Source: an uncultured Desulfovibrio sp.
GTDB taxonomy: Bacteria > Desulfobacterota > Desulfovibrionia > Desulfovibrionales > Desulfovibrionaceae
Direction of reading: 5' to 3'
Length of the DNA stretch: 36,679 nt
Assembly: GCA_949291675.1 (NCBI GenBank)
Contig: CASEWR010000154.1
Coordinates: 1-36,679 of the forward strand
A model generated the notes under the pieces. It was not told the origin of the DNA, made no database searches, and was given only the letters and a program-made list of their open reading frames with translations. A program made the position numbers and the translations under genes. Positions 9,562 through 25,532 of the stretch are shown piece by piece (position 1 is the stretch's first letter; each line of letters begins with the position of its first letter).

Positions 9562-9646
9562 AGCTGTGCGGGGGCATGTGTGGGATCTGCCACAACCAGT
9601 CATTATGTGGTAGCCAGATTTGAGGGGATGTCAAGACCTTTCCTGA

Positions 9647-9834: not shown

Positions 9835-9883
9835 GTTTCACTTGTGTTTCAGTGAAACATGACGAAACATCTTGAAACGTTTC
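9835..9883. promoter_or_regulatory. cluster of GTTTCA/TGAAAC inverted repeats, candidate activator site
   Basis: GTTTCACT (9835-9842) pairs with AGTGAAAC (9851-9858). Overlapping it is TGTTTCA-G-TGAAACA (9845-9859). Further copies are GAAACA at 9864 and the perfect palindrome GAAACGTTTC (9874-9883). Another GTTTCA is at 9802. The cluster lies 200-290 bases upstream of the sigma-54 promoter, where an enhancer-binding activator would bind. The PrpR-type regulator encoded at 23583 is the natural candidate (inference). Confidence 0.5.
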
Positions 9884-10046
9884 TGTTTCTGTGCTCTTTT
9901 GCACAAGCACCCCGCAGGCTCCTTGTGCTTTGTGTCACTTGTGAATTTGCAGTTTTCTACACTTTCGTTCTTTTTTGCACAAAAGCACACAAGGCCCTGC
10001 ATCCTTGAGAATTTGTGTGCACAACATGCTCTTTTTTCCTCGTTTG

Positions 10047-10063
10047 CGTCACAAAAAGTGACG
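10047..10063. promoter_or_regulatory. inverted repeat CGTCAC-A5-GTGACG
   Basis: Perfect 6-bp arms around AAAAA lie 27 bases upstream of the sigma-54 promoter. The position suits a DNA-bending or regulator site. No protein can be assigned. Confidence 0.35.
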
Positions 10064-10089
10064 AAAACGCGCCCGTTTTTCCTTCCTTT

Positions 10090-10105
10090 TGGTCACGGAT
10101 TTGCA
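10090..10105 (+). promoter_or_regulatory. sigma-54 (RpoN) promoter of the tcu-TCA operon
   Basis: The sequence TGGTCACGGATTTGCA has the invariant GG (10091-10092) and GC (10103-10104) exactly ten bases apart, with TGG at -24 and TTGCA at -12. Transcription would start near 10116, about 80 bases before tcuA. A sigma-54 activator gene lies at the end of the cluster, which supports the assignment. Confidence 0.7.
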
Positions 10106-10197
10106 CAACACACAGTATTCCACCGGTCCGCCGCCCAGACTGTCTGTCACTCGCAAGGGTGGCATTAAGGATCATCAAAACGTGAGAAGGAGGAAGC

Positions 10198-11610
10198 ATG
10201 AGCAGTTCATGTGCACCCCGCGATCAAAAAATGCTGGACGTTCTCGTGATAGGCGGAGGCAATGCAGCTCTGTGTGCAGCAATCACAGCCCGCAGAGCCG
10301 GCGCCACCGTCAGAATTCTCGAGGCATCGCCCAAGGATGTACGGGGCGGCAACAGCCGGCATACGCGCAACATCCGTTACATTCACCCCACTGCAAACGC
10401 CTTTCTGACCGGCCCCTACGGGGAAGAGGAGTGCTACAAGGACCTCCTTGGTGTAACCAAGGGCAATACCATTGAAGCCATGGCCCGTCTGGTCATCCGC
10501 AATTCCAACAATGTGGGCGACTGGATGATGGAACAGGGGGTTCACTTCCAGCCTGCCATGCGCGGCACCCTGCATCTGTCGCGCACCAACGGCTTCTTCC
10601 TCGGTGGCGGCAAGGCCCTGATCAATGCCTATTACGCCACAGCTGAAAAGCTGGGTGTGGAAATCTCCTACGAAAGTGAAGCCGTGGACCTGTGCATTGA
10701 AGACGATACCTTCAAGTACGCCGTTGTCCGCCGCGGCGAGGAAGAAGAGCACATTGCGGCTAAGACCGTCATTCTTGCCTCCGGCGGCTATCAGGCCAAT
10801 ATCGAGTGGCTGAAGCGCTCCTGGGGGCCGCAGGCAGCCAACTTCCTCATCCGCGGCACCCCCTATGACCGCGGTCAGATGCTCAAGGTCATGATGGACC
10901 ACGGCGCCAAGACCCTCGGCGATCCCACCCAGGGACACTGCGTTGCCATTGACGGCCGCGCTCCCAAGTTCGACGGCGGCATCTGTACCCGCCTTGACTG
11001 TGTGCCCTTCGGCATTGCCGTCAACAAGAACTGTGAACGCTTCTACGATGAAGGCGAGGAGATCTGGCCCAAGCGCTACGCCATCTGGGGCCGCCTTGTG
11101 GCAGCACAGCCCGACCAGGTCGCCTACGTCATCATTGACTCCAAGTCCATCAACCTCTTCATGCCTTCCGTCTTCCCACCCATTGAAGCCAAGACCATTG
11201 CGGAAATGGCCGCCAAGATGGAACTCGACCCCGAAGCTCTGGAAAAGACCGTGGCTGAGTACAATGCCCACACCGTTCCCGGCGGTACCTTCAACTCCGG
11301 CGACAAGGACGGCATTGCCACAGAAGGTCTGGAACCGAAGAAGAGCAACTGGGCCCGTCCCATCGACACCCCGCCCTATTACGGCTACTGCCTGCGTCCC
11401 GGCATCACCTTCTCCTATCTGAGTCTTGCCATCAACGAAAAGGCCCAGGTGCTCAAGGAAGATGACACTCCCTTCACCAACATCTTTGCCGCAGGGGAAA
11501 TCACCTCCGGAAACGTGCTCGGACAGGGCTACATGGCCGGGTTTGGCATGACCATCGGAACCGTTTTTGGCCGCATTGCCGGTAAGGAGGCCGTATGTCT
11601 GAAGTCATGA
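10198..11610 (+). CDS. tcuA: FAD-dependent tricarballylate dehydrogenase-like flavoprotein
   Basis: TcuA-type enzymes oxidise tricarballylate to cis-aconitate and pass two electrons to TcuB. The 470-aa protein belongs to the fumarate reductase/succinate dehydrogenase flavoprotein superfamily. It has the FAD-binding VIGGGNAALCAA at about 17-28, GGNSRHTRN near 51, an ASGGY segment near 200, and the C-terminal FAD segment AAGEITSGNVLGQGYMAGFG near 430-450. There is no Tat or Sec signal, so it should be cytoplasmic. A strong AGGAGG lies just before the ATG. It is the first gene after the sigma-54 promoter and overlaps tcuB by 16 bases. The substrate is inferred from family and partner; reduction of aconitate in the reverse direction is a real alternative. 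Confidence 0.85.
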   Translation: MSSSCAPRDQKMLDVLVIGGGNAALCAAITARRAGATVRILEASPKDVRGGNSRHTRNIRYIHPTANAFLTGPYGEEECYKDLLGVTKGNTIEAMARLVIRNSNNVGDWMMEQGVHFQPAMRGTLHLSRTNGFFLGGGKALINAYYATAEKLGVEISYESEAVDLCIEDDTFKYAVVRRGEEEEHIAAKTVILASGGYQANIEWLKRSWGPQAANFLIRGTPYDRGQMLKVMMDHGAKTLGDPTQGHCVAIDGRAPKFDGGICTRLDCVPFGIAVNKNCERFYDEGEEIWPKRYAIWGRLVAAQPDQVAYVIIDSKSINLFMPSVFPPIEAKTIAEMAAKMELDPEALEKTVAEYNAHTVPGGTFNSGDKDGIATEGLEPKKSNWARPIDTPPYYGYCLRPGITFSYLSLAINEKAQVLKEDDTPFTNIFAAGEITSGNVLGQGYMAGFGMTIGTVFGRIAGKEAVCLKS

Positions 11611-12701
11611 AGGAAATCTTGAAGGAAGCCCACCGCACGACCACCATCTGCAATGCCTGCAGATACTGCGAAGGGTTCTGTGCAGTGTTCCCGGTCATGG
11701 AACTGCGTCGCACCTTCACCGATCAGGAACTGAAATACTTTGCCAACCTCTGTCATAACTGCCGCGGCTGCTACTATGCCTGTCAGTATGCCCCGCCCCA
11801 TGAATTCGATCTGAACTACCCCGAAGTCATGGCAAAGCTGCGCAGGCAGACCTACGAAGAATTTGCCTGGCCGAAGTTCCTGGCCCCCGCCCTGCGCAAT
11901 AACGGCCTCTATGTCTTCGGCGTCTCCCTCATCTTTGTCCTGCTCTTCATCCTGGGCTCCCTGGCAGCCAATGGCTCGGAAGCCTTCTTCACAGCCTACA
12001 CCTCTGCAGGCTCCTTCTACGAAATCATTCCCTACGGCATGATGCTCGTGCTCTTCAGCGCAGCCTTCCTCTTCGGTCTGGTCTCCCTCTTCATGGGCGT
12101 GAAGACCTTCTGGAAGGAAACCGACGCCAAGCCCGGGGAAATGTGGCGCCTTGCCAACCACATCCAGGCCATCAGGGACGCAGCCACCCTGCGCTACCTC
12201 GACGGCAACGGCGAAGGCTGCAACTACCCGGATGACCGCTTCAGCACCATCCGCCGTACCTACCATCACCTGACCTTCTACGGCTTTCTGGCCTGCCTTG
12301 TCTCCACCTCCATTGCCTTCATCTACGACCACATCTTCGGCTGGCCTGCTCCCTACGAGTTCTTCAGTCTCCCTGTGCTCTTCGGTACAGGCGGCGGTCT
12401 GGCCATGTGCGCAGGCACTGCAGGTCTCATGTATCTCAAGTGCAGGATGGACAGGCGTCCCTATGATGAAATGAGCGTTGGCATGGATCTCTCCTTCTCC
12501 ATGCTGCTCTTCCTCATCTGCCTGAGCGGCCTCCTGCTCATGCTCTGCCACACCACAGCTCTCATGGGACTGCTTTTGTGCGTGCACCTGGGCCTTGTGC
12601 TCGGCTTGTTCGTGACCTTTGCCACCAGCAAGTTCGCACACATTGCCTACCGCTACTTCGCACTTGTGCGCAACGCCTACGAGATGCGCGACAGCAACTG
12701 A
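11595..12701 (+). CDS. tcuB: tricarballylate utilisation iron-sulfur membrane protein
   Basis: TcuB reoxidises the flavin of TcuA and hands electrons to the membrane quinone pool. The 368-aa protein has two N-terminal cysteine clusters of the form CxxCxxCxxxC (C19/22/25/29 and C53/56/59/63), expected to hold iron-sulfur centres. Several hydrophobic helices follow (near 105-125, 145-168, 230-260, 270-290, 312-332 and 335-355) with conserved-looking His residues that could ligate haem. The start lies inside the end of tcuA with AGGAGG 4 bases upstream, so the two are translationally coupled. The pair TcuA-TcuB is what makes the tricarballylate assignment firmer than flavoprotein similarity alone. 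Confidence 0.88.
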   Translation: MSEVMKEILKEAHRTTTICNACRYCEGFCAVFPVMELRRTFTDQELKYFANLCHNCRGCYYACQYAPPHEFDLNYPEVMAKLRRQTYEEFAWPKFLAPALRNNGLYVFGVSLIFVLLFILGSLAANGSEAFFTAYTSAGSFYEIIPYGMMLVLFSAAFLFGLVSLFMGVKTFWKETDAKPGEMWRLANHIQAIRDAATLRYLDGNGEGCNYPDDRFSTIRRTYHHLTFYGFLACLVSTSIAFIYDHIFGWPAPYEFFSLPVLFGTGGGLAMCAGTAGLMYLKCRMDRRPYDEMSVGMDLSFSMLLFLICLSGLLLMLCHTTALMGLLLCVHLGLVLGLFVTFATSKFAHIAYRYFALVRNAYEMRDSN

Positions 12702-12724
12702 TACCATACCTCCACCCAGTCATG

Positions 12725-12755
12725 TGTCCGGCATGCAGGCCCTGCATGCCGGACA
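12725..12755 (+). other. 14-bp perfect intercistronic hairpin
   Basis: TGTCCGGCATGCAG and its exact complement flank the loop GCC between tcuB and the transporter gene. No U-tract follows, so it is more likely an RNA-stability or processing element, or a weak attenuator, than a full terminator. Confidence 0.75.
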
Positions 12756-12786
12756 AGACGAACAGAGCTGCCAAGGGGACAACGCC

Positions 12787-14067
12787 ATGCTGACCTATTT
12801 CGGACTCCTGATCATTATCCTCACCATTGTCGCCATGATACGGAAGATCGAATCGCGTCTGGTTCTGATCGTCACCGGCTTCATCATGGCCCTGGCAGCC
12901 CTTGATCCCATGGCGGCCTTCAACGGACTGACCAAGGGCATGACCGAATCGAACCTGATCTGCAACATCTGCTCGGTCATGGCCTTTGCCTTTGTCATGA
13001 AATACACAGGCTGTGACCTGCATCTCTCCAATGCCGTGTCAAAGCCCCTGCACAAGGTTCGCATCATCCTGGTCCCCGGTGCCACCTTCGTCACCTTCTT
13101 CGTCAATATTTCCCTCCCCAGCGCTGCCGGTGTTGCCGCGGCAGTGGGCTCGGTCATCATCCCCCTGCTCATGCGCATGGGCGTGCGCCCCGCCATGGCC
13201 GGCGCTGCCGTGCTCATGGGCACCTACGGCAGCATCCTCTCCCCAGGCCTTCCGCACAACCCCTTTGTGGCTGACATTGCCACGAAGGTGCTTGGTCGCG
13301 AAGTGGCCGTCATGGAAGTCATCACCCGCCATTCCTTTGCCAGCATTGTCACAGTCATCTGCGCAGCACTCATCCTCTGGGTCATCTCCATCGTTCTCAA
13401 GGAAGGCAAGGGTTACACCAGCGACACCCCGGAAGAGAAGAACTTTGTGGTCAACCCTGTCTACGCAGTCATCCCCATTGTGCCTGTGGCCATGCTCATC
13501 ACAGGCGCCCTCTTCCCCGAACAGGTCCCGGCTCTTGCAGCCCTGCGCGTTGAGCACACCATGCTCTTCGGAGCAGCCCTGGGCCTTGTTGCCACCAGAA
13601 AGAACCCCATGGATGGCTCCAGGCAGTTCTTTGCAGGCCTTGGCAAGGGCTATGCCGACATCATGGGCATTGTCATTGCCGCAGCAGTCTTTGTGGCCGG
13701 CATGAAGGCCACAGGCGTTGTGGACGCAGGCATTGAGCTCATGAAGACCTCTGAGAGCGCTGCCACCATCGCAGCCCTCATCGGCCCCTGGGCCATGGCT
13801 GTGGTCTGCGGCTCCGGCAATGCTGCCACCATCGCCTTCAATGAAGCTGTGACCATCTCTGCCCCCGCCTTTGGTGTGGACGTCATTGACATGGGCGCCC
13901 TGGCCACCCTGGCAGGCTGCATTGGCCGCTGCATGTCCCCCATCGCCGGCGTGACCTTTGTGTGCGCAGGCCTGTGCGGCGCCAACCCCATGGAACTTGT
14001 GAAGCGCACCTTCATTCCCTGCCTTGTGGGCCTGGTTGTGGGCTACGCCCTGCTCATCGGCTTCTAG
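12787..14067 (+). CDS. DcuC-family dicarboxylate/tricarboxylate carrier
   Basis: The 426-aa protein is almost wholly hydrophobic, with about 11-12 membrane helices. It begins MLTYFGLLIIILTIVAMIRK, like the anaerobic C4-dicarboxylate carrier DcuC. A conserved-looking GTYGSILSPGLPHNP loop and GSGNAATIAFNEA near 340 fit the wider ion-transporter superfamily, in which such loops bind substrate. The ATG at 12787 is preceded by AAGGGG. The classical tricarballylate importer TcuC is of another family (major facilitator type), so this is a replacement. In context it may import tricarballylate or citrate, export succinate, or exchange the two. The substrate is inference. Confidence 0.78.
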   Translation: MLTYFGLLIIILTIVAMIRKIESRLVLIVTGFIMALAALDPMAAFNGLTKGMTESNLICNICSVMAFAFVMKYTGCDLHLSNAVSKPLHKVRIILVPGATFVTFFVNISLPSAAGVAAAVGSVIIPLLMRMGVRPAMAGAAVLMGTYGSILSPGLPHNPFVADIATKVLGREVAVMEVITRHSFASIVTVICAALILWVISIVLKEGKGYTSDTPEEKNFVVNPVYAVIPIVPVAMLITGALFPEQVPALAALRVEHTMLFGAALGLVATRKNPMDGSRQFFAGLGKGYADIMGIVIAAAVFVAGMKATGVVDAGIELMKTSESAATIAALIGPWAMAVVCGSGNAATIAFNEAVTISAPAFGVDVIDMGALATLAGCIGRCMSPIAGVTFVCAGLCGANPMELVKRTFIPCLVGLVVGYALLIGF

Positions 14068-14148
14068 CTTCTCTCTCCCCGCCTGAAAAAAAACCTGACA
14101 AGCTGTGACAGACGGCCCGCCCGGGTCTGCCTGCGAGGACACACGCCC

Positions 14149-16410
14149 ATGATACGCATTTTCAACGACAAAGCCTGCTACATAAATGGTCGCCTTGTTC
14201 CCCTGTCGGACGCTCCCCAGCATGCCCCGAAGACTGGGGAAAAGCCCCTTGGCATGGCTCAGCGCATCCTGAAAAAGCATACAATTTCCACCACAGAGGG
14301 GCGCTATGCCATCCGTTTTGACGAGCTGCTCTCCCACGACATCACCTATGTGAGCATCGTGCAGACAGCCAGGGCCAGCGGTCTTGACCGCTTCCCCATG
14401 CCCTACAGTTTCACCAACTGTCACAACTCCCTGTGCGCCATCGGCGGTACCATCAATGCTGATGACCACCGCTTCGGCCTCTCGGCAGCCATGAAGTACG
14501 GCGGCAGCTTTGTGCCCCCCAATATGGCAGTCATCCATCAGTACGCCAGAGAAATGGTGGCAGCCCCCGGCAAAATGGTCATGGCCTCTGACAGCCACAC
14601 CCGCTACGGCGCCCTGGGGTGTCTAGGTGTAGGCGAAGGCGGCGGTGAGCTGGTCAAGCAGATCTTAGGCAAGACCTGGGACGTGGATGAACCCGCCATC
14701 ATTGGCATCTACGTGCACGGTGAGCCTCAGCCCGGCGTCGGCCCCCATGACGTGGCCATTGCCATGGTGACTGCCCTCTTCCCGGACGGCTGGGCCAAAA
14801 ACTGCATCCTCGAATTTGTGGGTCCCGGCATTGCCAGCCTGCCCATGGACTTCCGTCTGGGCATTGACGTCATGACCACCGAGACTGCCTGTCTCTCCTC
14901 TGTCTGGCAGACAGACGAGACCGTGCGCGCCTACCTGGACACCCATGGCAGGGGAGAGAGCTACAAGGCCATCTCTCCGGATGAAGGCGCAGTCTACGAC
15001 AAGTGGGTGGACATGGACCTTTCTGCCATCAGACCCATGATTGCCCTGCCCTTCCATCCCAGCCTCGGCATTGCCATCGATGATTTCAACCACGATGTGT
15101 ACGACCATGTGGACGAGATGGAAAAGCGCGCAGTCAAGCTCATGCGCGATCAGTACAAATCCGTTCCCAATCTGAAGAGCAAGATTCAGGACGGCGGCTT
15201 CTACGTGGATCAGGGTGTGGTCTCAGGCTGCTGCGGCGGTCTCTACGGCAACCTTGCCACTGTGGCCGAAATGCTCAGGGGCAAAAGCATTGGCTGCACA
15301 GGCCGCAACTACTCGCTCTATCCTGCCAGTCAGCCCGTACTGCAGAATCTCCTGGCTTCAGGAGCCATTGCCGACATGGTTGCCGCAGGTGCCACCATAC
15401 GCACCGCCTTCTGCGGCCCCTGTTTCGGTGCAGGCGACGTGCCCGGACAGAACTGCTTCTCCATCCGCCACGTGACCCGCAACTTTGCCAACCGCGAAGG
15501 CTCCAAGGCTGCCCAGGGACAGATTTCCTACGTGGCCCTCATGGACGCCCGCTCCATCACAGCCACCATGCTCAATGGCGGCCGCCTCACTGCTGCAGGT
15601 GCGGACACCCCTGCCATGCCGAAGAGCTACAGCTTTGATCCGACCATCTACGCAAAGAACGTCTACCATGGCTTCGGCAGGGAACAGCCCGACATCGAGC
15701 TGACCAGAGGCCCCAACATTGCCGACTGGCCGGACATGATCGCCCTGCCCGAGAACCTGCTGCTCACTGTGGGCACAGCCCTCTTCGACAAGGTCACCAC
15801 CACAGATGACTTCATTGCCTCAGGCGAGCCCTCGGCCTTCCGCTCCAATCCGGGCAAGATGGCCGAATACACCCTGCGCAGCAAGGATGCAGGCTATGTG
15901 GCCAGAGTCCAGGCCATTCGCGAGCTGGAGCTGGCCAGAGAAAAGGCCCTGGCAGACGGAAGCGACGTTCCCCAGGCTGTGGCCGACTACCTTGCAAAGG
16001 CAGGCCTTGGCGCAGAGGCTGCAAAGGATACCGGCATTGGCTCTCTGGTCTTTGCCATCTATCCTGGCGACGGCTCTGCCAGAGAACAGGCTGCCTCCTG
16101 CCAGAAGGTGCTGGGCGGCTGGGCCAATATCGCAGGCTCCTATGCCACCAAGCGCTATCGCAGCAACTGCATCAACTGGGGCATACTGCCCCTGGTGACC
16201 TGCGATGCGGTGGAGAGCTGGGATATTGCCACCGGCGACATGGTCTATCTGCCGGGCATACGCAGTCTTCTTGCAGGCAGTGGCGAAGAAATCACCGCAA
16301 CCGTCATCCACGACGGCAAGGCTGTCCAGCGCAAACTTTCCCTGCCTGGCATCTCCCCCGAAGAGCGGGCCATCCTCCTTTCGGGCTGCCTCATTAACTA
16401 CTACAAGTAG
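14149..16410 (+). CDS. aconitase-family hydratase (YbhJ-like)
   Basis: The 753-aa protein belongs to the aconitase superfamily and has the length of the YbhJ-type hydratases. Its catalytic-type segment MASDSHTRYGALG lies at 145-157. Candidate cluster ligands are C361 or C362 in SGCCGG, where standard aconitases have SCTN, and C422 and C425 in FCGPCFGAGD. The C-terminal swivel domain with SYATKRYRSNCINWG carries the substrate-binding Arg and Ser region. In this operon it would hydrate cis-aconitate from TcuA to isocitrate, feeding the isocitrate dehydrogenase encoded next. The biochemical function of YbhJ itself is not settled as far as I know. GAGG lies ten bases before the ATG. Confidence 0.85.
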   Translation: MIRIFNDKACYINGRLVPLSDAPQHAPKTGEKPLGMAQRILKKHTISTTEGRYAIRFDELLSHDITYVSIVQTARASGLDRFPMPYSFTNCHNSLCAIGGTINADDHRFGLSAAMKYGGSFVPPNMAVIHQYAREMVAAPGKMVMASDSHTRYGALGCLGVGEGGGELVKQILGKTWDVDEPAIIGIYVHGEPQPGVGPHDVAIAMVTALFPDGWAKNCILEFVGPGIASLPMDFRLGIDVMTTETACLSSVWQTDETVRAYLDTHGRGESYKAISPDEGAVYDKWVDMDLSAIRPMIALPFHPSLGIAIDDFNHDVYDHVDEMEKRAVKLMRDQYKSVPNLKSKIQDGGFYVDQGVVSGCCGGLYGNLATVAEMLRGKSIGCTGRNYSLYPASQPVLQNLLASGAIADMVAAGATIRTAFCGPCFGAGDVPGQNCFSIRHVTRNFANREGSKAAQGQISYVALMDARSITATMLNGGRLTAAGADTPAMPKSYSFDPTIYAKNVYHGFGREQPDIELTRGPNIADWPDMIALPENLLLTVGTALFDKVTTTDDFIASGEPSAFRSNPGKMAEYTLRSKDAGYVARVQAIRELELAREKALADGSDVPQAVADYLAKAGLGAEAAKDTGIGSLVFAIYPGDGSAREQAASCQKVLGGWANIAGSYATKRYRSNCINWGILPLVTCDAVESWDIATGDMVYLPGIRSLLAGSGEEITATVIHDGKAVQRKLSLPGISPEERAILLSGCLINYYK

Positions 16411-16440
16411 GCAGGACATCAGACAAGTGTACAGGGGAGT

Positions 16441-16495
16441 GGCAGGAGTGCCCCCGGGCATTCCTGCCCAGGCTCCCCGCCGGGGGGCGGGGAGC
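16441..16495 (+). other. two tandem hairpins between hydratase gene and icd
   Basis: The first (16441-16468) pairs GGCAGG/CCTGCC with an inner TGCCC/GGGCA. The second (16472-16495) is a perfect 10-bp GC-only stem GCTCCCCGCC/GGCGGGGAGC with loop GGGG. It is followed by ACAATTTC, so partial termination or an RNA-processing role is possible. Confidence 0.7.
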
Positions 16496-16545
16496 ACAAT
16501 TTCACAAGACACGACCGGCCTGTCAAGGCATACAGGAGCTACCCT

Positions 16546-17757
16546 ATGGCGTCTACCATCACCATGGCCGAAAACGGCAAACTGATCATCCCTGATGACC
16601 CCATTATCCCCATCATTCCCGGCGATGGTGTCGGCCCTGACATCTGGAAGGCCTCCCAGCCTGTGTTCGATGCCGCAGTGGCAAAGGCCTACGGCGGCAC
16701 AAAGAAGATTGAATGGCTACCCATTGATGCCGGCGAGACCTGCTGGAAAAACACAGGTGAATTCGTGCCCGAAGCCAGCATGGAAGCAATCACCAAATAC
16801 CGCGTCGCCCTGAAGGGTCCCCTGAGCACCCCTGTGGGCAAGGGCTTCCGCTCCGTGAACGTGCTCCTTCGCAGACTCTTTGACCTCTATGCCTGCATCC
16901 GTCCCGTGAGCCACGTACCCGGCGTCCCCAGCCCTGTAAAGGATCCCGATGCCGTAAACATGGTCATCTTCCGTGAAAACACCGAAGACCTCTATGCAGG
17001 CATTGAATGGGATGCCGGTACCCCCGAGGCCGCAAAAGTGATTGCGCTCATCAAGGAGCTCACAGGTCGCGAACTCGGTCCCGACACCTCCATCGGCATC
17101 AAGCCCATCTCCGAGAAGGGCACCAAACGCCTGGTGCGCATGGCCATTCAGTACGCCATTGACCACAAGCTGCCCAGCGTGACTCTGGTGCACAAGGGCA
17201 ATATCATGAAGTTCACCGAAGGTGGCTTCCGCCGCTGGGGCTATGAGTGCGCAGCCGAGGAATTCGGCGATGTCACCATCACCGAGGAAGAAGTGGGCAA
17301 GCTGGGCGGAAAGGTTCCGGATGGCAAAATCGTCATCAAGGACCGCATCACAGACTCCATGTTCCAGCAAATCCTGCTGCGTCCGCGCGAGTACAGCGTG
17401 CTGGCCATGCCCAATCTGAACGGCGACTACATGTCCGATGCCCTGGCAGCCCAGGTGGGCGGCCTTGGCATGGCTCCGGGTTCCAATGTGGGCGACGGCT
17501 ACGCCATCTTTGAAGCCACCCACGGCACAGCCCCCAAGTACACCAACCTCGACAAGATCAACCCAGGCTCCCTGCTCCTCTCCGGTGCCCTCATGTTCGA
17601 GTACATGGGCTGGAACGAAGCAGCGAATCTGGTGCGCAAGGGCATTGCCGGCGCTGTGGCAGCAAAGACCGTGACCTATGACCTGGCCCGCCAGATGGAC
17701 GGCGCCACAGAGGTTGCCTGCTCGGCATTCGGCAGAGCCATCTGCGAACACATGTAA
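16546..17757 (+). CDS. icd: NADP-dependent isocitrate dehydrogenase
   Basis: This enzyme oxidatively decarboxylates isocitrate to 2-oxoglutarate. The 403-aa protein resembles the Escherichia coli type throughout. Substrate-site segments are RSVNVLLRR (S103 corresponds to the regulatory phosphorylation serine), IFRENTEDLYAG, LVHKGNIMKFTEG and NLNGDYMSDALAAQVGG. In HGTAPKY, K331 and Y332 are the residues that select NADP over NAD in the E. coli enzyme, and an Arg in DLARQMDGA agrees with that. AGGAG lies seven bases before the ATG. No kinase/phosphatase gene aceK is seen in the window. Confidence 0.96.
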   Translation: MASTITMAENGKLIIPDDPIIPIIPGDGVGPDIWKASQPVFDAAVAKAYGGTKKIEWLPIDAGETCWKNTGEFVPEASMEAITKYRVALKGPLSTPVGKGFRSVNVLLRRLFDLYACIRPVSHVPGVPSPVKDPDAVNMVIFRENTEDLYAGIEWDAGTPEAAKVIALIKELTGRELGPDTSIGIKPISEKGTKRLVRMAIQYAIDHKLPSVTLVHKGNIMKFTEGGFRRWGYECAAEEFGDVTITEEEVGKLGGKVPDGKIVIKDRITDSMFQQILLRPREYSVLAMPNLNGDYMSDALAAQVGGLGMAPGSNVGDGYAIFEATHGTAPKYTNLDKINPGSLLLSGALMFEYMGWNEAANLVRKGIAGAVAAKTVTYDLARQMDGATEVACSAFGRAICEHM

Positions 17758-17767
17758 CTACCAGGTC

Positions 17768-17814
17768 CGGGTCCGCACCCTGCCTGTTCCCCTTCTCAGA
17801 AAGGGGCGGACCCG
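17768..17814 (+). other. nested hairpin between icd and korD
   Basis: Outer arms CGGGTCCG/CGGACCCG enclose an inner CCCCTT/AAGGGG hairpin. No U-tract follows. It sits directly before the korD ribosome site. Confidence 0.6.
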
Positions 17815-17830
17815 TTATCAGGGGCGATAT

Positions 17831-18067
17831 ATGAAGTCACATAGCATTGAACTTGCCTGGTGCAAGGGCTGCGGTATCTGCGTGGCCTTCTGTCCCAAAA
17901 AGGCTCTGAGTCTGGACCTTATCAGCCAGAAGGCGAGATGGGCCGAAGACAAGTGCATTTTCTGCGGTCTGTGCGAACACTACTGTCCGGATCTGGCCAT
18001 CACCGTGATCAATGACAAGACTCCGGGCGCTGGCACTTCTCACGTACAGGAGGCGGCAAATGGGTGA
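17831..18067 (+). CDS. korD: 2-oxoglutarate:ferredoxin oxidoreductase, ferredoxin-like delta subunit
   Basis: The 78-aa protein carries two 4Fe-4S motifs, CKGCGICVAFCP and CIFCGLCEHYCP, as in the small subunit that relays electrons to external ferredoxin. The ATG at 17831 follows AGGGG at six bases. It overlaps korA by eight bases, as expected for subunits made in equal amounts. The subunit order D-A-B-C matches known KOR clusters. Confidence 0.93.
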   Translation: MKSHSIELAWCKGCGICVAFCPKKALSLDLISQKARWAEDKCIFCGLCEHYCPDLAITVINDKTPGAGTSHVQEAANG

Positions 18068-19205
18068 AAGCATGTTTGTTCAGGGCAATGAGGCCTGTGC
18101 ACGCGGAGCGATCTACGCCAATCTGCGTTTCTTTGCAGGCTACCCCATTACCCCTTCCACGGAAATCGCCGAAAGCCTTGCCGAGCTGCTCCCGAAAGTC
18201 GGCGGCAAGTTCGTGCAGATGGAAGATGAACTCTCTTCCATGTGTGCCATCTGCGGTGCCTCCCTGGCCGGCCTGAAGGTCATGACCGCAACCTCTGGTC
18301 CCGGCTTCTCCTTAAAGCAGGAAGCCATAGGCTATGCCGTCATGACGGAGATTCCCTGTGTCATCGTGGATGCACAGCGCGGCGGCCCCTCCACCGGTCT
18401 TCCCACGGAAGTCTCCCAGGGCGACGTCATGCAGGCGCGCTGGGGTGTCCACGGCGACCACTCCATCATTGCCCTCACTGCCTCAAGCGTGCAGGACGTC
18501 TTTGAAATCACTGTCGAAGCCTTCAATATGGCAGAGACCCTGCGCACGCCCGTCATCCTGCTGTTAGATGCCGAAATCTGTCACATGCGCGAGCGCCTCA
18601 CCATCCCTGATCCCGGTGAGCTGCATGTTGTCGAGCGCCTCTACACGGAAGTGAAGCCCGGCGTTGCCTACCATCCCTACCTGCCCAGAGAAGACGGCCG
18701 CCTGCCCATCTCCAACTTCGGCGATGGCCATCGCTTCAATGTCACCGGGCTGCACCATGACATCTGGGGCTTCCCGACCCAGAATCCCGACAGCATCGAG
18801 TACCTGAACCGTCATCTCTACGACAAGATCGAAAACCGCACCAATACGCTTGCCAGGTGGAAGGAATACGATCTTGATGACGCGGACATCGTGCTCATCT
18901 CCTACGGCTCGGCTGCCAGAAGCGCCCGTCAGCACGTGTTTGACAGACGCAAGCGCGGCGAGAAGCTCGGTCTGCTCGAACTGCAGACCCTCTGGCCTTT
19001 CCCGGCCGACCTTGTTCGTGAAAAGACAGCCCATGCCCGCCGCGTCATTGTGGCAGAAATGAACATGGGACAGATCTGCTCCCAGGTGAAGAGTGTTGTG
19101 GAACATCCTGAACGGGTCTTCCTGGCCAACAGGATCGACGGCCGACTCATCACACCGGAGAACATCGCCAGATGTATCCGTCTCATCGACGGGAGGGGGT
19201 TCTAA
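18060..19205 (+). CDS. korA: 2-oxoglutarate:ferredoxin oxidoreductase, alpha subunit
   Basis: The alpha subunit of the KorABCD complex helps bind thiamine diphosphate and CoA while 2-oxoglutarate is converted to succinyl-CoA, CO2 and reduced ferredoxin. The 381-aa protein has the family start FVQGNEACARGAI and GYPITPSTEI near 28-37, EDELSSM near 55, ATSGPGFSLKQEA near 80, and QRGGPSTGLPT near 105. These are hallmarks of the 2-oxoacid ferredoxin oxidoreductase alpha subunit. The start is the ATG at 18060 behind AGGAGG. Confidence 0.95.
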   Translation: MGESMFVQGNEACARGAIYANLRFFAGYPITPSTEIAESLAELLPKVGGKFVQMEDELSSMCAICGASLAGLKVMTATSGPGFSLKQEAIGYAVMTEIPCVIVDAQRGGPSTGLPTEVSQGDVMQARWGVHGDHSIIALTASSVQDVFEITVEAFNMAETLRTPVILLLDAEICHMRERLTIPDPGELHVVERLYTEVKPGVAYHPYLPREDGRLPISNFGDGHRFNVTGLHHDIWGFPTQNPDSIEYLNRHLYDKIENRTNTLARWKEYDLDDADIVLISYGSAARSARQHVFDRRKRGEKLGLLELQTLWPFPADLVREKTAHARRVIVAEMNMGQICSQVKSVVEHPERVFLANRIDGRLITPENIARCIRLIDGRGF

Positions 19206-20003
19206 ATGTCCATTCAACGTCTGATACGGCCCCGTTTCTTCCCCCACATCTGGTGCCCGGGCTGCGGCCACGGCATTATCCTGAACGGTCTGCTCCATGC
19301 TGTGGATGAGATGGGCCTGGAGCAGAACAAACTGTGCATGGTGTCCGGCATCGGCTGTTCCTCGCGCATCTCCGGCTATGTGGACTTCCACAGCATGCAC
19401 ACCCTGCACGGCAGAGCGCTGGCCTTTGCCACAGGCCTGAAACTTGCCCGCCCCGAAGTGCACGTCTTTGTGCCCATGGGCGACGGTGACGCCACAGCCA
19501 TCGGTGGCAACCACTTCATCCACGCCTGCAGGCGCAACATCGATCTTGTGGCCATTGTCATGAACAACCGCATCTACGGCATGACAGGCGGCCAGTTCTC
19601 CCCCGAATCCGGCCAGGGCATCATGGCCACCACAGCGCCCTACGGCAACATTGATCCCACCTTTGACGTGGTGAAGCTGGCCATGGGTGCAGGAGCCACC
19701 TTTGTGGCCAGGACAACGGCCTTCCATGTGAAGGAAATTGTCAGCATCATCAAGAAGGCCACCATGCACAAGGGCTTCTCGGTTGTGGAAATCCTCTCCC
19801 AGTGTCCCACCTACTTCGGCCGCAAGAACAAGTACGGCGGCGCTGTGGATATGCTGAACTGGTACAAGGAGAATACTGCTCCCATCGGCTCGCCCAAATT
19901 GCAGGACAATCCGAATCTCATCGAGCGCGGCATCTTTGTGGATACGCAGGCGCCTGAGTACTGTGAAGAGTATGACAAGCTTATTGCCAGGGTGAGGAGC
20001 TAG
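19206..20003 (+). CDS. korB: 2-oxoglutarate:ferredoxin oxidoreductase, beta subunit
   Basis: The beta subunit carries the thiamine diphosphate site. Of 265 aa, CPGCGHG is at 17-23, and the cofactor motif runs from GDGDATAIGGNH (92-103) to NNRIYGMTGGQ (120-130). FSVVEILSQCPTYFGRKN near 195 is typical of the 2-oxoglutarate-specific branch. The ATG follows the korA stop without a gap, with GGAGGGGG just upstream. Confidence 0.95.
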   Translation: MSIQRLIRPRFFPHIWCPGCGHGIILNGLLHAVDEMGLEQNKLCMVSGIGCSSRISGYVDFHSMHTLHGRALAFATGLKLARPEVHVFVPMGDGDATAIGGNHFIHACRRNIDLVAIVMNNRIYGMTGGQFSPESGQGIMATTAPYGNIDPTFDVVKLAMGAGATFVARTTAFHVKEIVSIIKKATMHKGFSVVEILSQCPTYFGRKNKYGGAVDMLNWYKENTAPIGSPKLQDNPNLIERGIFVDTQAPEYCEEYDKLIARVRS

Positions 20004-20006
20004 CTC

Positions 20007-20564
20007 ATGATCAATCGCATTCTTCTTTCCGGTTCCGGCGGTCAGGGCGTCATCACCATGGCAATCCTGCTGGCGCAGGCAGCCTGTCTCTATGAAGGCC
20101 ACAATGCCATTCAGTCACAGAGCTACGGTCCCGAGGCCAGAGGTGGCGCCACACGCTCGGACGTGATCATTTCCGACGAACCCATCTACTATCCCAAGGT
20201 CCAGCATCCCAACATTCTTGTTGCCCTGACCAATGAGGCCTCTGCCAAGTATCTGAAGTTCATCAGACCCAATGGCATCTTCCTCTTTGACAGCGAGATG
20301 GTGCAACCCTCCACCAAGATGGATGCGGACTACATTGGCTTTCCCATGTACAAGCCGGTTATGGAACGTTTCAAAAAGCCCCAGGCACTCAATATCTGTG
20401 TGCTCGGCGCTCTGCTTGAGCTGACCCATGTCACCAGCTTTGACTCCATCAGACAGTGCCTGAGAGACCGCTTCCGGCCGGCCTTCCATCAGGCCAACGA
20501 CGACGCCCTCTCCCTCGGTCAGGAGCTCGCCGCATCCTGGCGCGAAGCACACAAGATCGTGTAA
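20007..20564 (+). CDS. korC: 2-oxoglutarate:ferredoxin oxidoreductase, gamma subunit
   Basis: The 185-aa protein starts LLSGSGGQGVITMAILLAQAA, the gamma-subunit signature, and contains SQSYGPEARGGATRSDVIIS near 38-57. It starts three bases after the korB stop, with GGAG upstream. It completes the four-subunit enzyme. The reaction is reversible in principle, but the operon context favours oxidation. Confidence 0.94.
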   Translation: MINRILLSGSGGQGVITMAILLAQAACLYEGHNAIQSQSYGPEARGGATRSDVIISDEPIYYPKVQHPNILVALTNEASAKYLKFIRPNGIFLFDSEMVQPSTKMDADYIGFPMYKPVMERFKKPQALNICVLGALLELTHVTSFDSIRQCLRDRFRPAFHQANDDALSLGQELAASWREAHKIV

Positions 20565-20845
20565 GTGCCGGACAATACGTCTGTGATGCACCAGGGTGGC
20601 TGTGCAGAGCTCTGTGCAGAACTTTGCGCAGCCGCATGGATGCAACACAGGGGTGAGACCACAGACGTTTTTTCCGGCAGCCCCGGCACCCGGGATGGCG
20701 CAAGACTTCCCGGGGCCAGGGTCTCCATTCCCGCATACGTCAGGCAACGTACCGCGTACAGCATTCGCACGTACCATTCACACATATCAATCGCACATAC
20801 CAGCACCGCACATACCAGCACGTAACGTTTGAGACAGGGGAATCT
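20565..20845 (+). other. 281-bp gap before sucC with short repeats
   Basis: No gene was found. GCACATACCAGCAC occurs twice in tandem near 20794-20822, and related CGTAC/CACATA strings precede it. There is no clear terminator, so sucCD may be read from upstream. A separate promoter was not recognised. Confidence 0.45.
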
Positions 20846-22033
20846 ATGAATATCCATGAGTATCAGGCCAAGGAGCTCTTTGCCTCCTTCGGCATACCGG
20901 TTCCTGAAGGCGGCCTGGCACAGAGCAGCGAGGAAGCTCGCGCCATTGCCGGCAAACTTCCCGGACCGGTCATGGTGGTCAAGGCACAGGTGCATGCAGG
21001 CGGCCGCGGCAAGGCTGGCGGCGTCAGGGTCTGCCGCAGCATCGAGGAAGTGGAAGCTGCCGCACAGGCCATCCTCGGCATGACACTGGTCACCAGACAG
21101 ACAGGCGCCCAGGGCAAGAAAGTGCACAAGGTCTGGGTGGAACAGGGCACGGACATTGCCGCTGAGCTCTACCTGGCAGTGGTCCTGGACAGAAGTCAGG
21201 GCCTGCTCACAGTCATGGCCTCGCCCTGCGGCGGCATGGACATCGAGGCTGTGGCCGAAGAACATCCGGACAAGATTTTCACCACCCGCCTCGACGGCAG
21301 CCATCAGCTGTGGCCCTATCAGGCCCGCCAGCTGCTCTTTGGCTGCGGCCTCAACGCAAAGCAGGTCAGTCAGGGGGTGCAGATCATCCAGGCCCTGGTG
21401 AAGCTGGCAGTTGCAAAGGACGCCACCCAGGTGGAAGTCAATCCCCTGGCCATCACCGGTGACGGCAGCCTCATGGCTCTGGATGCCAAGGTGAACTTTG
21501 ATGAAAGCGGCCTGCCCCGTCATCCTGACATTGCAGCCCTGGATGACCCGGAAGAAAGCGATCCCTATGAGCGCAAGGCTAGGGAGGCAGGCGTCAACTA
21601 CGTGCGCCTGGACGGCTATGTGGGCACCATGGTCAATGGCGCAGGCCTGGCCATGGCCACCATGGATGCCATCAAGCAGGCAGGCGCGGAACCTGCCAAC
21701 TTCCTGGATGCAGGCGGCTCTGCCAATGAGGACATGGTTGCCAGGGGCTTTGAAATCATGCTCTCGGACTCCAGGGTGCGCGGCATTCTGATCAATATCT
21801 TCGGCGGCATCTTGCGCTGCGACATCGTGGCCCAGGGCATTGTCAATGCCGCCAGGAAGGTGAATCTGACGCTGCCGCTGGTGGTGCGCATGGAAGGCAC
21901 CAACGTGGAAGAAGGACGCCGCATTCTGGCTGAGAGCGGTCTTGCCATCACCAGGGCCTCGTCCATGCTTGAAGCTGCAGAGAAAATTGCCGCGCTCACC
22001 AGGCAGGACAATGGGGACAGGAGGGACGCATGA
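20846..22033 (+). CDS. sucC: succinate-CoA ligase (ADP/GDP-forming), beta subunit
   Basis: With SucD it converts succinyl-CoA to succinate while making ATP or GTP. The 395-aa protein has the ATP-grasp start [38 protein letters not shown] near 47-62, EVNPL near 197, and the C-terminal [16 protein letters not shown] near 325. Length and motifs are complete. AGGGG precedes the ATG, and the stop overlaps the sucD start by four bases. Confidence 0.96.
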
Positions 22034-22908
22034 GCATTCTTGTGAACAGCACATCCCGCGTGGTGGTGCACGGTCTGACAGGTCGCGAGGGCCGCTTCCA
22101 CGCTGAGCAGATGCTGGCATACGGCACCAATGTGGTGGCTGGCGTCACCCCCGGCAAGGGCGGCCAGGAAGTTCTTGGCGTGCCTGTCTTCAATACCTGC
22201 GCAGAGGCGGTGAAGGCCACAGGGGCCACTGTGAGCGTCATCTTTGTGCCGGCCATGGCTGCAGCAGACTCTGCCTGCGAGGCAGCGGACGCTGGGGTGG
22301 AACTGGTGGTGCTCATCACCGAGCACATCCCTGTGCTGGACATGGCCAGGGTCAAAAGCAGATTTGCCGCCACAGGCACAAAACTGGTGGGCCCCAACTG
22401 CCCCGGCCTCATCACACCCGGCCAGTGCAAGGTGGGCATCATGCCCGGCTACATCTTCAAACCCGGCCCCATCGGCCTTATCTCCCGCTCCGGTACCCTC
22501 ACCTATGAGGCCACCTGGCAGCTGACGCAAAAGGGCCTTGGCCAGAGCACCTGCGTGGGCATTGGCGGCGACCCCATTCCCGGCCTGTACTTCACGGAAC
22601 TTTTGCAGATGTTCCGCGATGACCCGCAGACCGAGGCTGTGTGCCTTATCGGCGAAATCGGTGGTGACGGCGAAGAGCGCGCTGCCGACTACATCAGAAC
22701 CACAAACTATCCCAAGCCCGTCTTCGGCTTCATTGCCGGCCTCACTGCCCCCAAGGGCAAGAGAATGGGCCATGCCGGCGCCATTATCAGCGGCAACAAG
22801 GGCCGCGGTGAGGACAAGATCGCTGCCTTTGAGGCTGCAGGTGTCACAGTCATTCATTCCCTGGGCCACTTCGGCGACGTGGTGGCAGACACCCTGAAGA
22901 AATCCTGA
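22030..22908 (+). CDS. sucD: succinate-CoA ligase, alpha subunit
   Basis: The 292-aa alpha subunit binds CoA and carries the phosphorylated histidine. Features are [17 protein letters not shown] near the start, [20 protein letters not shown] near 120, [15 protein letters not shown], and [18 protein letters not shown], whose His is the phosphohistidine. It starts inside the end of sucC (ATGA overlap) with AGGAGG upstream. It is the last enzyme gene of the cluster. Confidence 0.96.
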
Positions 22909-23582
22909 TTCCCCGCATACCTGGTATGCATGCAGCGGAGCTGACCGAGGTTTCCCCTCTGGCCGGGATTCCTGCCTGGCCAGGGTTTCCCCTCTGGCCG
23001 GGGTTTCCTGCAGGGTTCGGCCTGCCGGCAGATTCGCACACCTGAACCTGTTTCCATCCCCGTACCTGTTTTCATCGCTGTACCCCCGACTTCCTTCACC
23101 AGCATCCTTACCCATCCCGTCTCCTTTGCGTCCTCCTCCTGCTCGCAAGCCTGCAGCGCAGGCAGGGTCCGTCCCATGAGCTTCAGGCTCTTCCGGTCCT
23201 TCCTGCGCAGCAGGCAGCACGTGGCAGCGAACGGCAAAGGCCCCCGCCACACCCATTCCCCGCCTTTTGTCAGTGTGTCAGGCCTGTTCCCACCATATGG
23301 CCCCACCATATCCCCGCATACGGCCCGCAGCGGCCAGTCTGACAGCCGCAATCCGGGCCTGACACACGCCTGTCCCTGACCGGAACAGGCGTGAAGGACA
23401 GTCTGTCACGCATTGTTCTGAGCAAGCCCCTGTGCTACCCTGCTGAAACGTCTGTGTCTTTTCCGGCAATGCCTGACGGCATTTTTCCAGCTGCTGCGCA
23501 GCTGCCGGGAGCAGCAAGTACCTGCAGCACAAAAAACCAGGCACGCCCCCCATGGCATTCCCCCTGACCAAGGGAGTTTTGT
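22909..23582. other. 674-bp gap before the regulator gene, repeats and a hairpin
   Basis: No gene was found. CTGGCC(A/G)GG(G/A)TTTCC-like units repeat four times between about 22960 and 23015. At 23365-23393 a 9-bp stem CACGCCTGT/ACAGGCGTG is nested in outer TGACAG/CTGTCA arms (23340-23408). It has no U-tract and may be a terminator of modest strength or a regulator site. No convincing promoter for the regulator was found. Confidence 0.5.
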
Positions 23583-25532
23583 ATGGAATCCACAATCATT
23601 GCCTTTTTCGGGACAAGCAAGCGACTTACCCGCATCGTGGAAGAGATAGCGAAGGAAACAGGTCTTAAGATCCTGATCTACCGCTACGGGCTTGATGATG
23701 CCATACATCCCGCCATCAGGGCAGTGGAAGAGGACTGTGTGGAGGCCATTGTGGCCTACAGAGGCACTGCTGACCTCATCCGCAGGAACGTCAATGTGCC
23801 TGTGCTCTCCATACACAACTCGGAAGTCCTCAAGGTGGACGCCATCTGCCGTCTCAGGGGCCATGCAAAAAAGATCTTCATCCCCATGACCCGCGACGAA
23901 GATCTGGATGTACACTGCATCTCCGAGCTGCTTTCGGACATGGAGATCCATACAGCCCGCTATACAACACATACGGAACTGGAGAACATCATCCGCAAGG
24001 CAAAAGACGCCGGCTGCGATACCGTGGTCTCAGGCGGCAAGGCCTGTCAGATCTCACGCAAGTATCACCTGCGCCATCTGCTCATTGTGCCCCAGCGCGT
24101 GCACATTCGCGCTCTCATTGACGATGCGGCAGGCATTGCCAGGACCAACAGAGAAAATGAACTGTGGATTCGCCGCAGTGAAGCCATCATGAACTCTGTC
24201 ACAGATGGCATTCTCTCCGTAGATACAGACGGCTTCATCACCATGTGCAACAAGCAGGCCTACAGTCTGCTCAATCTGAAGACACCTGTTACAGGTCTCA
24301 ACATTACCAATGTTCTGCCGGAGCTCGGTTTCAGCAGGGAAAAAGCCGGCAAACTCAACTACTTTGTCAAACAGATAGGCGCTGCCAAACTGGTCATCAA
24401 CTGCTCGCCCATTGAAGTGCGCCGCGGCATCTCAGGCTGGCTCTACAGCTTCAACTCGCCCCGCAAGATCATCACCGGCGGCAAGCTCGTCAGTCGTGCC
24501 CTGCATCAGGCCAACAGAGCCAAGTACACCATCAGGGACTATATCCACAAAAGTGAACTGATCGACCAGATGCTGCGCAGGCTCTGCCTCTATGCCTCCA
24601 GCAATTCCACAGTGCTTATTACCGGCGAGTCCGGCACAGGCAAGGAAATCCTGGCCAGTGCCCTGCACAACAAGTCGCAGCGCCGCAACAAGCCCTTTGT
24701 GTCCATCAACTGCGCGGCCATTCCCGAACAGCTCATTGAAAGCGAGCTCTTCGGCTATGAAGGCGGCTCCTTTACAGGCAGTCTCAGGGAAGGCAAGGCA
24801 GGCATCTTCGAGATTGCCGACGAGGGCACCATCTTCATTGATGAGGTGAACTCCCTGCCCCCCAGTGTGCAGCTCCTGCTCCTGCGCACCCTGCAGGAGC
24901 GTGAGATTCGCCGCATAGGCAGCGAGACCGTCATCCCCCTGAACATCCGGGTCATTGCCGCCACCAACAAGTCCCTCATTGAGGAAGTGCGGGCAGGCAG
25001 AATGCGCGACGACCTCTTCTTCCGCCTCAATGTGCTGGTGCTGGATGTCCCGCCCTTACGCAGTCACAGTGAGGACATCCCCGAGCTTGCCAGACACTTT
25101 GTCAGCAAGTTCACCATGGGCAGCAGGTACCAGTATCAGGCCATAGACATTCCCGATGACTGTCTGGAGCGTCTGAAGCATCTGGCCTGGCCGGGCAATG
25201 TGCGTGAACTTGAGCACTTCATCGAGCGTCTGGTGCTCCTGTGCAACGGTGTCTTTGACCGTGCCATCTTCAACTCCCTCTATGTGTCCACCAGCCAGTC
25301 CCAGTGCTGTTTGCGCAGCCCCGGCGCAGAGCCTGCAGTACAGCCCGAAACACACAGCAAAAACACTGCGGGCAAGCCCAAGTCTGTCAGAGTGAGCAGC
25401 ACGCTCTCCAGGGATCGCATTGTGGAAGCGCTGGCCCTCTTCAATGGCAAAAAGAGCAGAGCCGCCAGCTTCCTCGGTATTTCCAGAATCACCCTCTGGC
25501 GCCTCATGCAAAAGCACAAGATCATCTCCTGA
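23583..25532 (+). CDS. PrpR-type sigma-54-dependent transcription activator
   Basis: The 649-aa regulator has a PrpR N-terminal sensor domain (about 5-180), a PAS domain (about 195-300), an AAA+ sigma-54 interaction domain (about 322-560) and a Fis-type helix-turn-helix at the end (about 605-648). Walker A is GESGTGKE (348-355), Walker B TIFIDE (416-421), the arginine-finger region RMRDDLFFRLNV (473-484), and WPGNVREL 536-543. The sigma-54 contact loop reads GSFTGS (395-400) rather than the usual GAFTGA. In enterobacteria PrpR responds to 2-methylcitrate, a tricarboxylate. Here a tricarboxylate such as tricarballylate, cis-aconitate or citrate is a reasonable ligand (inference). GGGAG precedes the ATG. 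Its target is probably the promoter at 10090. Confidence 0.9.
   Translation: MESTIIAFFGTSKRLTRIVEEIAKETGLKILIYRYGLDDAIHPAIRAVEEDCVEAIVAYRGTADLIRRNVNVPVLSIHNSEVLKVDAICRLRGHAKKIFIPMTRDEDLDVHCISELLSDMEIHTARYTTHTELENIIRKAKDAGCDTVVSGGKACQISRKYHLRHLLIVPQRVHIRALIDDAAGIARTNRENELWIRRSEAIMNSVTDGILSVDTDGFITMCNKQAYSLLNLKTPVTGLNITNVLPELGFSREKAGKLNYFVKQIGAAKLVINCSPIEVRRGISGWLYSFNSPRKIITGGKLVSRALHQANRAKYTIRDYIHKSELIDQMLRRLCLYASSNSTVLITGESGTGKEILASALHNKSQRRNKPFVSINCAAIPEQLIESELFGYEGGSFTGSLREGKAGIFEIADEGTIFIDEVNSLPPSVQLLLLRTLQEREIRRIGSETVIPLNIRVIAATNKSLIEEVRAGRMRDDLFFRLNVLVLDVPPLRSHSEDIPELARHFVSKFTMGSRYQYQAIDIPDDCLERLKHLAWPGNVRELEHFIERLVLLCNGVFDRAIFNSLYVSTSQSQCCLRSPGAEPAVQPETHSKNTAGKPKSVRVSSTLSRDRIVEALALFNGKKSRAASFLGISRITLWRLMQKHKIIS

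Follow-up and report, generated by a model that had tools for sequence, protein, structure and literature searches.

A putative tricarboxylate-to-succinate catabolic operon with a sigma-54-dependent activator in a sulfate-reducing, gut-type Desulfovibrio

What use would a sulfate reducer without a closed tricarboxylic acid (TCA) cycle have for a full oxidative TCA branch placed in one row behind a pair of tricarballylate dehydrogenase genes? The question is raised by a 36,679-nucleotide stretch of an uncultured Desulfovibrio sp. (CASEWR010000154.1, our contig C154; the whole stretch is called the window below), which comes from a 3.07-Mb draft genome of 245 contigs (98.6% complete, 2.64% contamination). 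On it tcuA, tcuB, genes for a carrier and an aconitase-type hydratase, icd, korDABC and sucCD follow one another, and a gene for a sigma-54-dependent activator closes the row (Table 1). We read this row, with modest confidence, as a catabolic operon under sigma-54/PrpR-type control that turns a tricarboxylate into succinate, with TcuAB working oxidatively in a sulfate-reducing, gut-type Desulfovibrio. An earlier note on this DNA, written from the sequence alone, had listed the same genes; their place and order are as it stated, and protein profiles identify them.

In the proposed route, the DcuC-family carrier would import a tricarboxylate, namely tricarballylate, cis-aconitate or a relative; tricarballylate would become cis-aconitate through oxidation by TcuA and TcuB, with menaquinone as the electron acceptor; and the YbhJ-type aconitase would hydrate cis-aconitate to isocitrate. 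Icd would then give 2-oxoglutarate, CO2 and NADPH, the 2-oxoacid:ferredoxin oxidoreductase (KOR) KorDABC would give succinyl-CoA, CO2 and reduced ferredoxin, and SucCD would release succinate with the gain of one ATP or GTP. Sulfate would be the likely electron sink and succinate the likely end product, the latter because no FrdA/SdhA scored over its cut-off. Within this scheme we infer the gut habitat (from the nearest named relatives), the substrate, the direction of TcuAB, the substrate of the carrier, the ligand of the activator and co-transcription. A single transcript from tcuA to sucD is plausible from the spacing of the genes: the gaps within the block are 0–135 bp except for the 281 bp between korC and sucC, and 674 bp lie between sucD and the activator gene.

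The assignments are carried by profile scores. TcuA reached 660 bits against NF006130 (cut-off 369) and 580 against TIGR02485 (373), TcuB 375 against TIGR02484 (247), the carrier 365 against DcuC_1 (100), the hydratase 1022 against PRK11413 (641), Icd 597 against TIGR00183 (567), KorA 529 against PRK08659 (411), SucC 540 (cut-off 370) and SucD 431 (336). All four KOR subunits are present, and the sole profile cut-off passed is that of KorA, a general 2-oxoacid model; KorB (294 bits, cut-off 364), KorC (162, cut-off 235) and KorD (48, cut-off 60, scored on the longer mechanical open reading frame) fall below theirs. TcuB stays under the cut-off of the stricter subfamily model NF011607 (402 against 524), resembles QmoC with a score under that model's cut-off, and has no Pfam family assigned. 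It adjoins TcuA and carries two [4Fe-4S] motifs and membrane histidines, and nine Cys, of which eight belong to two cluster-type motifs, are kept together with five His in at least 95% of 43 rows.

Residues add to this picture. In the hydratase, C361, C422, C425, R444, R449, S643 and R645 are conserved and align to mitochondrial aconitase 1aco at what we take to be the cluster cysteines and active-site residues, the last two of the three aligned stretches being weak alone. TcuA matched, at low similarity, flavocytochrome c fumarate reductases, 3-ketosteroid dehydrogenase and urocanate reductase in the PDB; the His and Arg near the C-terminus of the fumarate reductases, presumably their fumarate-binding residues, are replaced in TcuA, and a substrate other than fumarate thus fits. 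The activator has the PrpR_N sensor domain (69 bits against 29 in Pfam) and missed the PrpR equivalog TIGR02329 (351 against 499); the identity given earlier, "PrpR-type", was in this respect overstated.

Is such a row more than a chance neighbourhood? Genome contigs searched for TcuA yielded 43 loci, many of them on short contigs; duplicate loci of one genome and matches under the length limits were dropped before anything was counted. (Loci and genomes carry our numbers, L and G; the host labels of relatives, such as termite-type, chicken-type, marine or soil, come from record names or recall.) In Desulfovibrio sp. An276 (L009) the gene order is as in the window, with TcuA at 93%. G212, which we take to be the same strain, shows sucCD, an activator gene 76% identical to ours and a flank of PRK05313, an ACT protein gene and lysS; because this flank is common to both, the operon sits in the same genomic place. 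G121, which belongs to another genus and is a single contig of 4.7 Mb, holds the gene set in rearranged form. One strand there carries a citMHS carrier gene, tcuB, tcuA, the gene of a fused SucCD, and icd; the other carries the activator gene, one for a PrpF-type isomerase, korDABC, a gene of which one stretch resembles a YciA-like thioesterase (below cut-off), and a YbhJ-type aconitase gene. The fused SucC-SucD has 701 residues (L060, 14531–16636, minus strand). With the complete set met again in An276 and, in another arrangement, in G121, the make-up of the operon is more than chance. Partial versions recur as well, and the uniqueness of the make-up was overstated earlier.

Among these, the contig of RUG514 (L010) bears tcuAB-dcuC-icd-korDABC-sucCD and lacks an aconitase gene. 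In Tb.RUG.315 (L013) the row tcuAB-acn-icd-korD-korA runs until the contig stops; its activator gene is divergent, and DcuC had no match. The termite-type loci L015 and L050 have acn-tcuAB-dcuC followed by an unrelated, eukaryotic-type NADP isocitrate dehydrogenase (the profile was run on L015), and an AcnB-type aconitase adjoins tcuAB in L019. The DcuC-type carrier is common to the window, An276, RUG514 and both termite-type loci. That icd, the aconitase and the carrier are replaced in place by unrelated families is, in our view, the best evidence for one shared pathway. PrpF-type isomerases adjoin tcuAB elsewhere, in G121 and L051 (profile-tested) and in L022, L025, L031 and L049 (as BLAST cluster mates). 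Most of the 43 loci, of marine or soil-type lineages, hold tcuAB without TCA-branch genes on the stretch examined. A conserved cluster (c7) that adjoins tcuAB in several sulfate-reducer loci, at first sight a transporter, gave no NCBIfam match.

The same comparison bears on whether TcuAB belongs to the core of the pathway. The block might instead be an operon for citrate or aconitate catabolism to which TcuAB is a side entry that removes or scavenges tricarballylate; we hold this to be unlikely. Indeed, kor genes adjoin each of the seven SucC genes over cut-off in 17 genomes of the genus, and the same-genus genome G203 has citF, korDABC-sucCD, a fused CitX-CitG and a PrpR-like activator (L072/L073, G203:C1:240000-279800); tcuAB had no match in the 40 kb of G203 examined, the remainder of that genome not having been searched for TcuA. 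Against this, the window, An276, RUG514 and Tb.RUG.315 all have tcuA and tcuB at the head of the block, and tcuAB comes directly after acn in the chicken-type and termite-type loci.

We then considered whether the rest of the genome could do the same work. dsrA is present, as it is in seven of the eight TcuA genomes tested. Si-citrate synthase had no match in any of nine genomes of the genus (9/9, own included), and FrdA/SdhA did not pass in this genome (best 189 bits against 567), whereas three of the nine genomes pass. An anaerobe without a full TCA cycle, as suggested earlier, is thus borne out as far as a draft can tell; all absences in this genome are provisional because it lies in 245 contigs. 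No second SucC or KOR over cut-off was found in the draft, so that a self-contained tricarboxylate-to-succinate route with its own activator agrees with KOR and SucCD passing here only. Likewise, another complete set for the same steps, which the earlier note had named as evidence against its proposal, was not found, although icd and the aconitase each have a second copy. Two further POR_N matches over cut-off, in open frames of 1100 and 616 residues, were rejected as a second KorA and read from their lengths as PFOR and IorA types. A sucCD pair on contig C233 was rejected as a second succinate-CoA ligase, being below cut-off and adjoining a gene for a SauS-type sulfoacetaldehyde dehydrogenase that is itself below cut-off. 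As an observation in its own right, the row on that contig (L080, G000:C233:8000-27900, 6194–11358), with a DASS symporter, the acylating SauS-type enzyme (492 bits, cut-off 600) and a SucCD-like CoA ligase, looks like a sulfoacetate-type pathway.

The enzymes of the operon also overlap with those of 2-oxoglutarate and glutamate synthesis, and the block could be such a housekeeping set or a remnant of the oxidative TCA cycle. We regard this as very improbable. The genome has a separate aconitase near an isopropylmalate/homocitrate synthase family gene (L063), which we take to be Re-citrate synthase, and a second icd (L064, G000:C104, 9440–10651, minus strand) at a locus without matches to other operon genes; moreover, TcuA is rare in the genus, and glutamate synthesis needs neither KOR nor SucCD. 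The housekeeping role in glutamate synthesis is disfavoured by the separate aconitase and icd. A methylcitrate-cycle operon was rejected as well, neither prpB nor prpC being among the identified genes of the block and the PrpR cut-off having been missed.

TcuA passed its cut-off in six of 199 genomes of a family sample, in 12 of 395 of a phylum sample and in none of 15 same-genus genomes of one survey; same-genus An276 and the termite-type G199 do have it. In a TcuA tree of 46 rows, the window and An276 pair inside a fully supported set of nine Desulfovibrionaceae rows, and TcuA of G121 and G011, both filed in the same family, fall outside that set. In an aconitase tree of 12 rows (this and the icd tree were made from rows of at least 40% identity), the operonic copies of the window, An276, L013, L015 and L050 cluster together. 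The second aconitase of this genome lies outside that cluster, as do the aconitases of G212, G206 and G207, and L011/L012 and G121 lie across the midpoint root. The operonic aconitase was thus rejected as a recent duplicate of the other copy in the genome. In the icd tree of eight rows, the nearest relative of the operonic icd is the second copy on C104, 94% identical; the icd type of G206/G207 (about 54%) is not among the three PF00180 matches of this genome, as far as compared.

How would the operon be switched? A sigma-54 scan covered 19 upstream stretches, 17 at tcu loci and two at korDABC-sucCD loci. Eight of them (L009, L011–L015, L050 and L051, with L011/L012 and L013/L014 as near-identical pairs) have a sense-strand element of at least 10/12 within 160 bp of the matched first gene. 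Elements of at least 10/12 occur six times on the plus strand of the 36.7-kb window, a frequency at which 19 stretches of 200 bp should hold roughly 0.6. No sense-strand element of at least 9/12 was found in the window, L010, L016, L019, L031, L034, L037, L049 or the short L072 stretch; in L060 there is one of 9/12, solely on the side of the activator, and the one of 11/12 in L076 is 541 bp away. The GG-N10-GC promoter proposed earlier is present as letters before tcuA and is weak in the window, and the aligned An276 sequence scores 10/12. Further upstream, the palindrome in Table 1, a candidate activator site, lies in a block conserved against An276, the rest of the intergenic region having diverged. 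As a pattern, TGTTNCANTGAAACA occurs once in the 3.07-Mb genome and once in An276, each time before this operon; only this rarity is informative, because the pattern was chosen after both sequences had been viewed. PrpR_N was found in 12/12 tcu-linked activators run against Pfam, those of the window and An276 included; the set was made without the candidates of L013, L014, L016, L027 and L037.

In which direction, then, does TcuAB work? Oxidation as in Salmonella would be the simplest reading. There, TcuA is reported to convert tricarballylate to cis-aconitate (Lewis 2006 as cited in PMC10468695). Oxidation is supported by this precedent, by the downstream enzymes, which start at its product, and by dsrA in the TcuA genomes. 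Several points nevertheless weigh against our proposal as a whole. The oxidation of tricarballylate with menaquinone should be uphill from the redox potentials, and DcuC-type carriers are often exchangers or succinate exporters. The specificity of KOR for 2-oxoglutarate rests on context because three of its subunits are under their cut-offs; the promoter element of the window is 8/12 by hand count and so below the 9/12 cut of the scan; and the operon is a rare trait in the genus, TcuA having been found in none of the 15 genomes surveyed. In the gut, furthermore, tricarballylate is described as a terminal product that rat caecal flora did not degrade (PMC3885560, in the excerpts available).

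TcuAB might accordingly run in reverse, as a menaquinol:aconitate reductase that makes tricarballylate, in a dismutation of aconitate (or citrate): one aconitate would go to succinate, 2 CO2 and ATP, its four electrons would reduce two aconitates, and DcuC would swap substrate for product. We consider this a possible, clearly second-ranked explanation. With menaquinol as the donor, reducing a C=C acid is energetically downhill, and the carrier is of the DcuC type not only in the window but also in An276, RUG514 and both termite-type loci. Formation of tricarballylate from trans-aconitate by gut bacteria has been reported (PMC7912123, PMC3885560, excerpts). One TcuAB-bearing relative, G011 (L062, contig C64), gave no dsrA match in a genome that is 98% complete. 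The inferred habitat, these gut reports, the carrier, the redox potentials and G011 together support reduction. Against it stand the reported oxidation by the characterised TcuA, sulfate as a probably available acceptor in view of dsrA, and the PrpF-type isomerase, which was not found in this genome (one of nine genomes had matches), so that trans-aconitate may not enter and its use is uncertain here; the PrpF-type isomerases beside tcuAB in other loci fit either direction.

A chicken-type relative among the Desulfovibrionaceae deserves mention in this respect. In L012 (2369–14839), acn-tcuAB is followed by citE, citF, oadA and oadB, CitF and OadB scoring above and CitE and OadA below their cut-offs. 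Citrate lyase is paired with Na+ oxaloacetate decarboxylase in citrate fermentation too, and here the pair would be an alternative outlet for the same entry module. Its place beside tcuAB counts in favour of dismutation, and the neighbourhood as such is compatible with either direction of TcuAB. We keep oxidation as the preferred direction; it had been simply assumed in the earlier note, and the redox potentials and the gut floras reported to form tricarballylate from aconitate leave it less secure than was claimed there.

The operon lies among ordinary neighbours: genes for an FtsY-type signal recognition particle (SRP) GTPase, a GGDEF/EAL protein, PRK05313, the ACT protein, lysS, an ABC permease and ATPase, and an Omp85 protein. 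The FtsY-type GTPase (2120–4855, minus strand) has a long Ala/Pro/Glu-rich N-terminal extension, its SRP domains starting from about residue 630 of 911. Rfam and tRNA scans of the window gave no matches, a terminator and sigma-70 scan gave no excess over shuffles, and GC ran at 57–63% along the window with no clear island.

Table 1. Features of the proposed operon and its control region (window positions; the starts of the carrier, korD and korA genes were set from sequence and are shorter than the mechanical open reading frames)
Feature	Position	Strand	Basis
Palindrome TGTTTCAGTGAAACA, candidate upstream activator site	9845..9859	.	within conserved block
Putative sigma-54 -24/-12 element, GG-N10-GC, TGGTCACGGATTTGCA	10090..10105	+	under 9/12 in scan
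tcuA, flavin adenine dinucleotide (FAD) tricarballylate dehydrogenase	10198..11610	+	NF006130 and TIGR02485 over cut-off; tree
tcuB, membrane iron-sulfur protein, electrons to/from quinone	11595..12701	+	TIGR02484 over cut-off; conserved Cys/His
DcuC-family carrier, candidate tricarboxylate/succinate carrier	12787..14067	+	NF037994 over cut-off
YbhJ-type aconitase/hydratase	14149..16410	+	PRK11413 over cut-off; cluster Cys and active-site residues kept
icd, NADP isocitrate dehydrogenase	16546..17757	+	TIGR00183 over cut-off
korD, 2x[4Fe-4S] ferredoxin-like subunit	17831..18067	+	Pfam Fer4
korA, 2-oxoacid:ferredoxin oxidoreductase alpha	18060..19205	+	PRK08659 over cut-off
korB, thiamine pyrophosphate (TPP)-binding beta subunit	19206..20003	+	PRK09628 below cut-off; Pfam PF02775 over cut-off
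korC, gamma subunit	20007..20564	+	PRK08537 below cut-off; Pfam PF01558 over cut-off
sucC, succinate-CoA ligase beta	20846..22033	+	NF001913 over cut-off
sucD, succinate-CoA ligase alpha	22030..22908	+	NF004230 over cut-off
Sigma-54-dependent activator: PrpR_N sensor, PAS, AAA+, Fis-type helix-turn-helix	23583..25532	+	Pfam; PrpR equivalog below cut-off

What would this locus mean? Each enzyme (TcuAB, aconitase, Icd, KOR, SucCD) is known, and it is their combination in one block that appears to be new; we found no description of it in the open-access literature, which was seen partly in excerpts, so that an account may well exist in print. Tricarballylate occurs in gut and rumen and has been implicated in grass tetany of cattle (PMC7912123, PMC3885560, excerpts). 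Both it and aconitate are plant- and gut-derived acids, and the operon may explain, in a way open to testing, how gut microbes use up tricarballylate or perhaps form it. In the same literature, again partly in excerpts, no genes for the formation of tricarballylate from aconitate by strict anaerobes were found, nor was a matching paper on aconitate reduction genes or gut respiratory reductases. Tentatively, if TcuAB works as an anaerobic aconitate reductase, the TcuA clade of gut-type Desulfovibrionaceae may carry genes behind the conversion of aconitate to tricarballylate that has long been known in rumen and caecum, with icd-KOR-SucCD supplying electrons and ATP. The presence of the operon in a named strain, An276, puts both directions of TcuAB within reach of direct testing, and G011 is an organism suited to testing the reductive one. 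The locus also illustrates how a complete oxidative branch could be put together, as a module that can be switched, by a sulfate reducer whose TCA cycle is not closed.

Comparison with known systems places the operon further. The window has the TcuA and TcuB families in common with tcuRABC of Salmonella enterica; unlike that system, it has a DcuC-type carrier instead of TcuC and a sigma-54/PrpR_N activator instead of TcuR, which is LysR-type, and it adds aconitase, icd, KOR and SucCD. The Salmonella operon is reported to comprise tcuA, tcuB and the transporter gene tcuC (PMC10468695, excerpt). The putative tricarballylate loci of reptile Helicobacter and Campylobacter, which are gut-living like the inferred host of the window, are described as tcuRABC only and often incomplete, and no TCA-branch genes are mentioned in the excerpted text (PMC5566214). 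With the prp operon of the 2-methylcitrate cycle and its PrpR, the window has PrpR_N and the sigma-54 AAA+ domain in common, and the G121 version also a PrpF-family isomerase; the identified genes of the block, however, include neither prpB nor prpC, and the activator is under the PrpR cut-off. Clusters for citrate fermentation, with citrate lyase and oxaloacetate decarboxylase, were met beside acn-tcuAB in L012, whereas the block of the window follows the isocitrate/2-oxoglutarate arm and lacks a citrate lyase gene.

The operonic hydratase, finally, is 51% identical to YbhJ of Escherichia coli, which keeps all 18 residues checked. In strain K-12, ybhHIJ (L085, 3760–8765) encodes a PrpF-family protein, YbhH, and an annotated putative tricarboxylate transporter, YbhI, and these match pieces of the G121 cluster; unlike the window, the ybh region examined has no tcuAB, icd, KOR or SucCD, and its regulator YbhD is LysR-type. 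YbhJ has been described as catalytically inactive (PMC4054840, excerpt), and ybhHI has been linked to L-malate use (PMC9068703, excerpt). The operon gives a context for these genes, and the likeness suggests that ybhHIJ may act on a substrate of the aconitate type.

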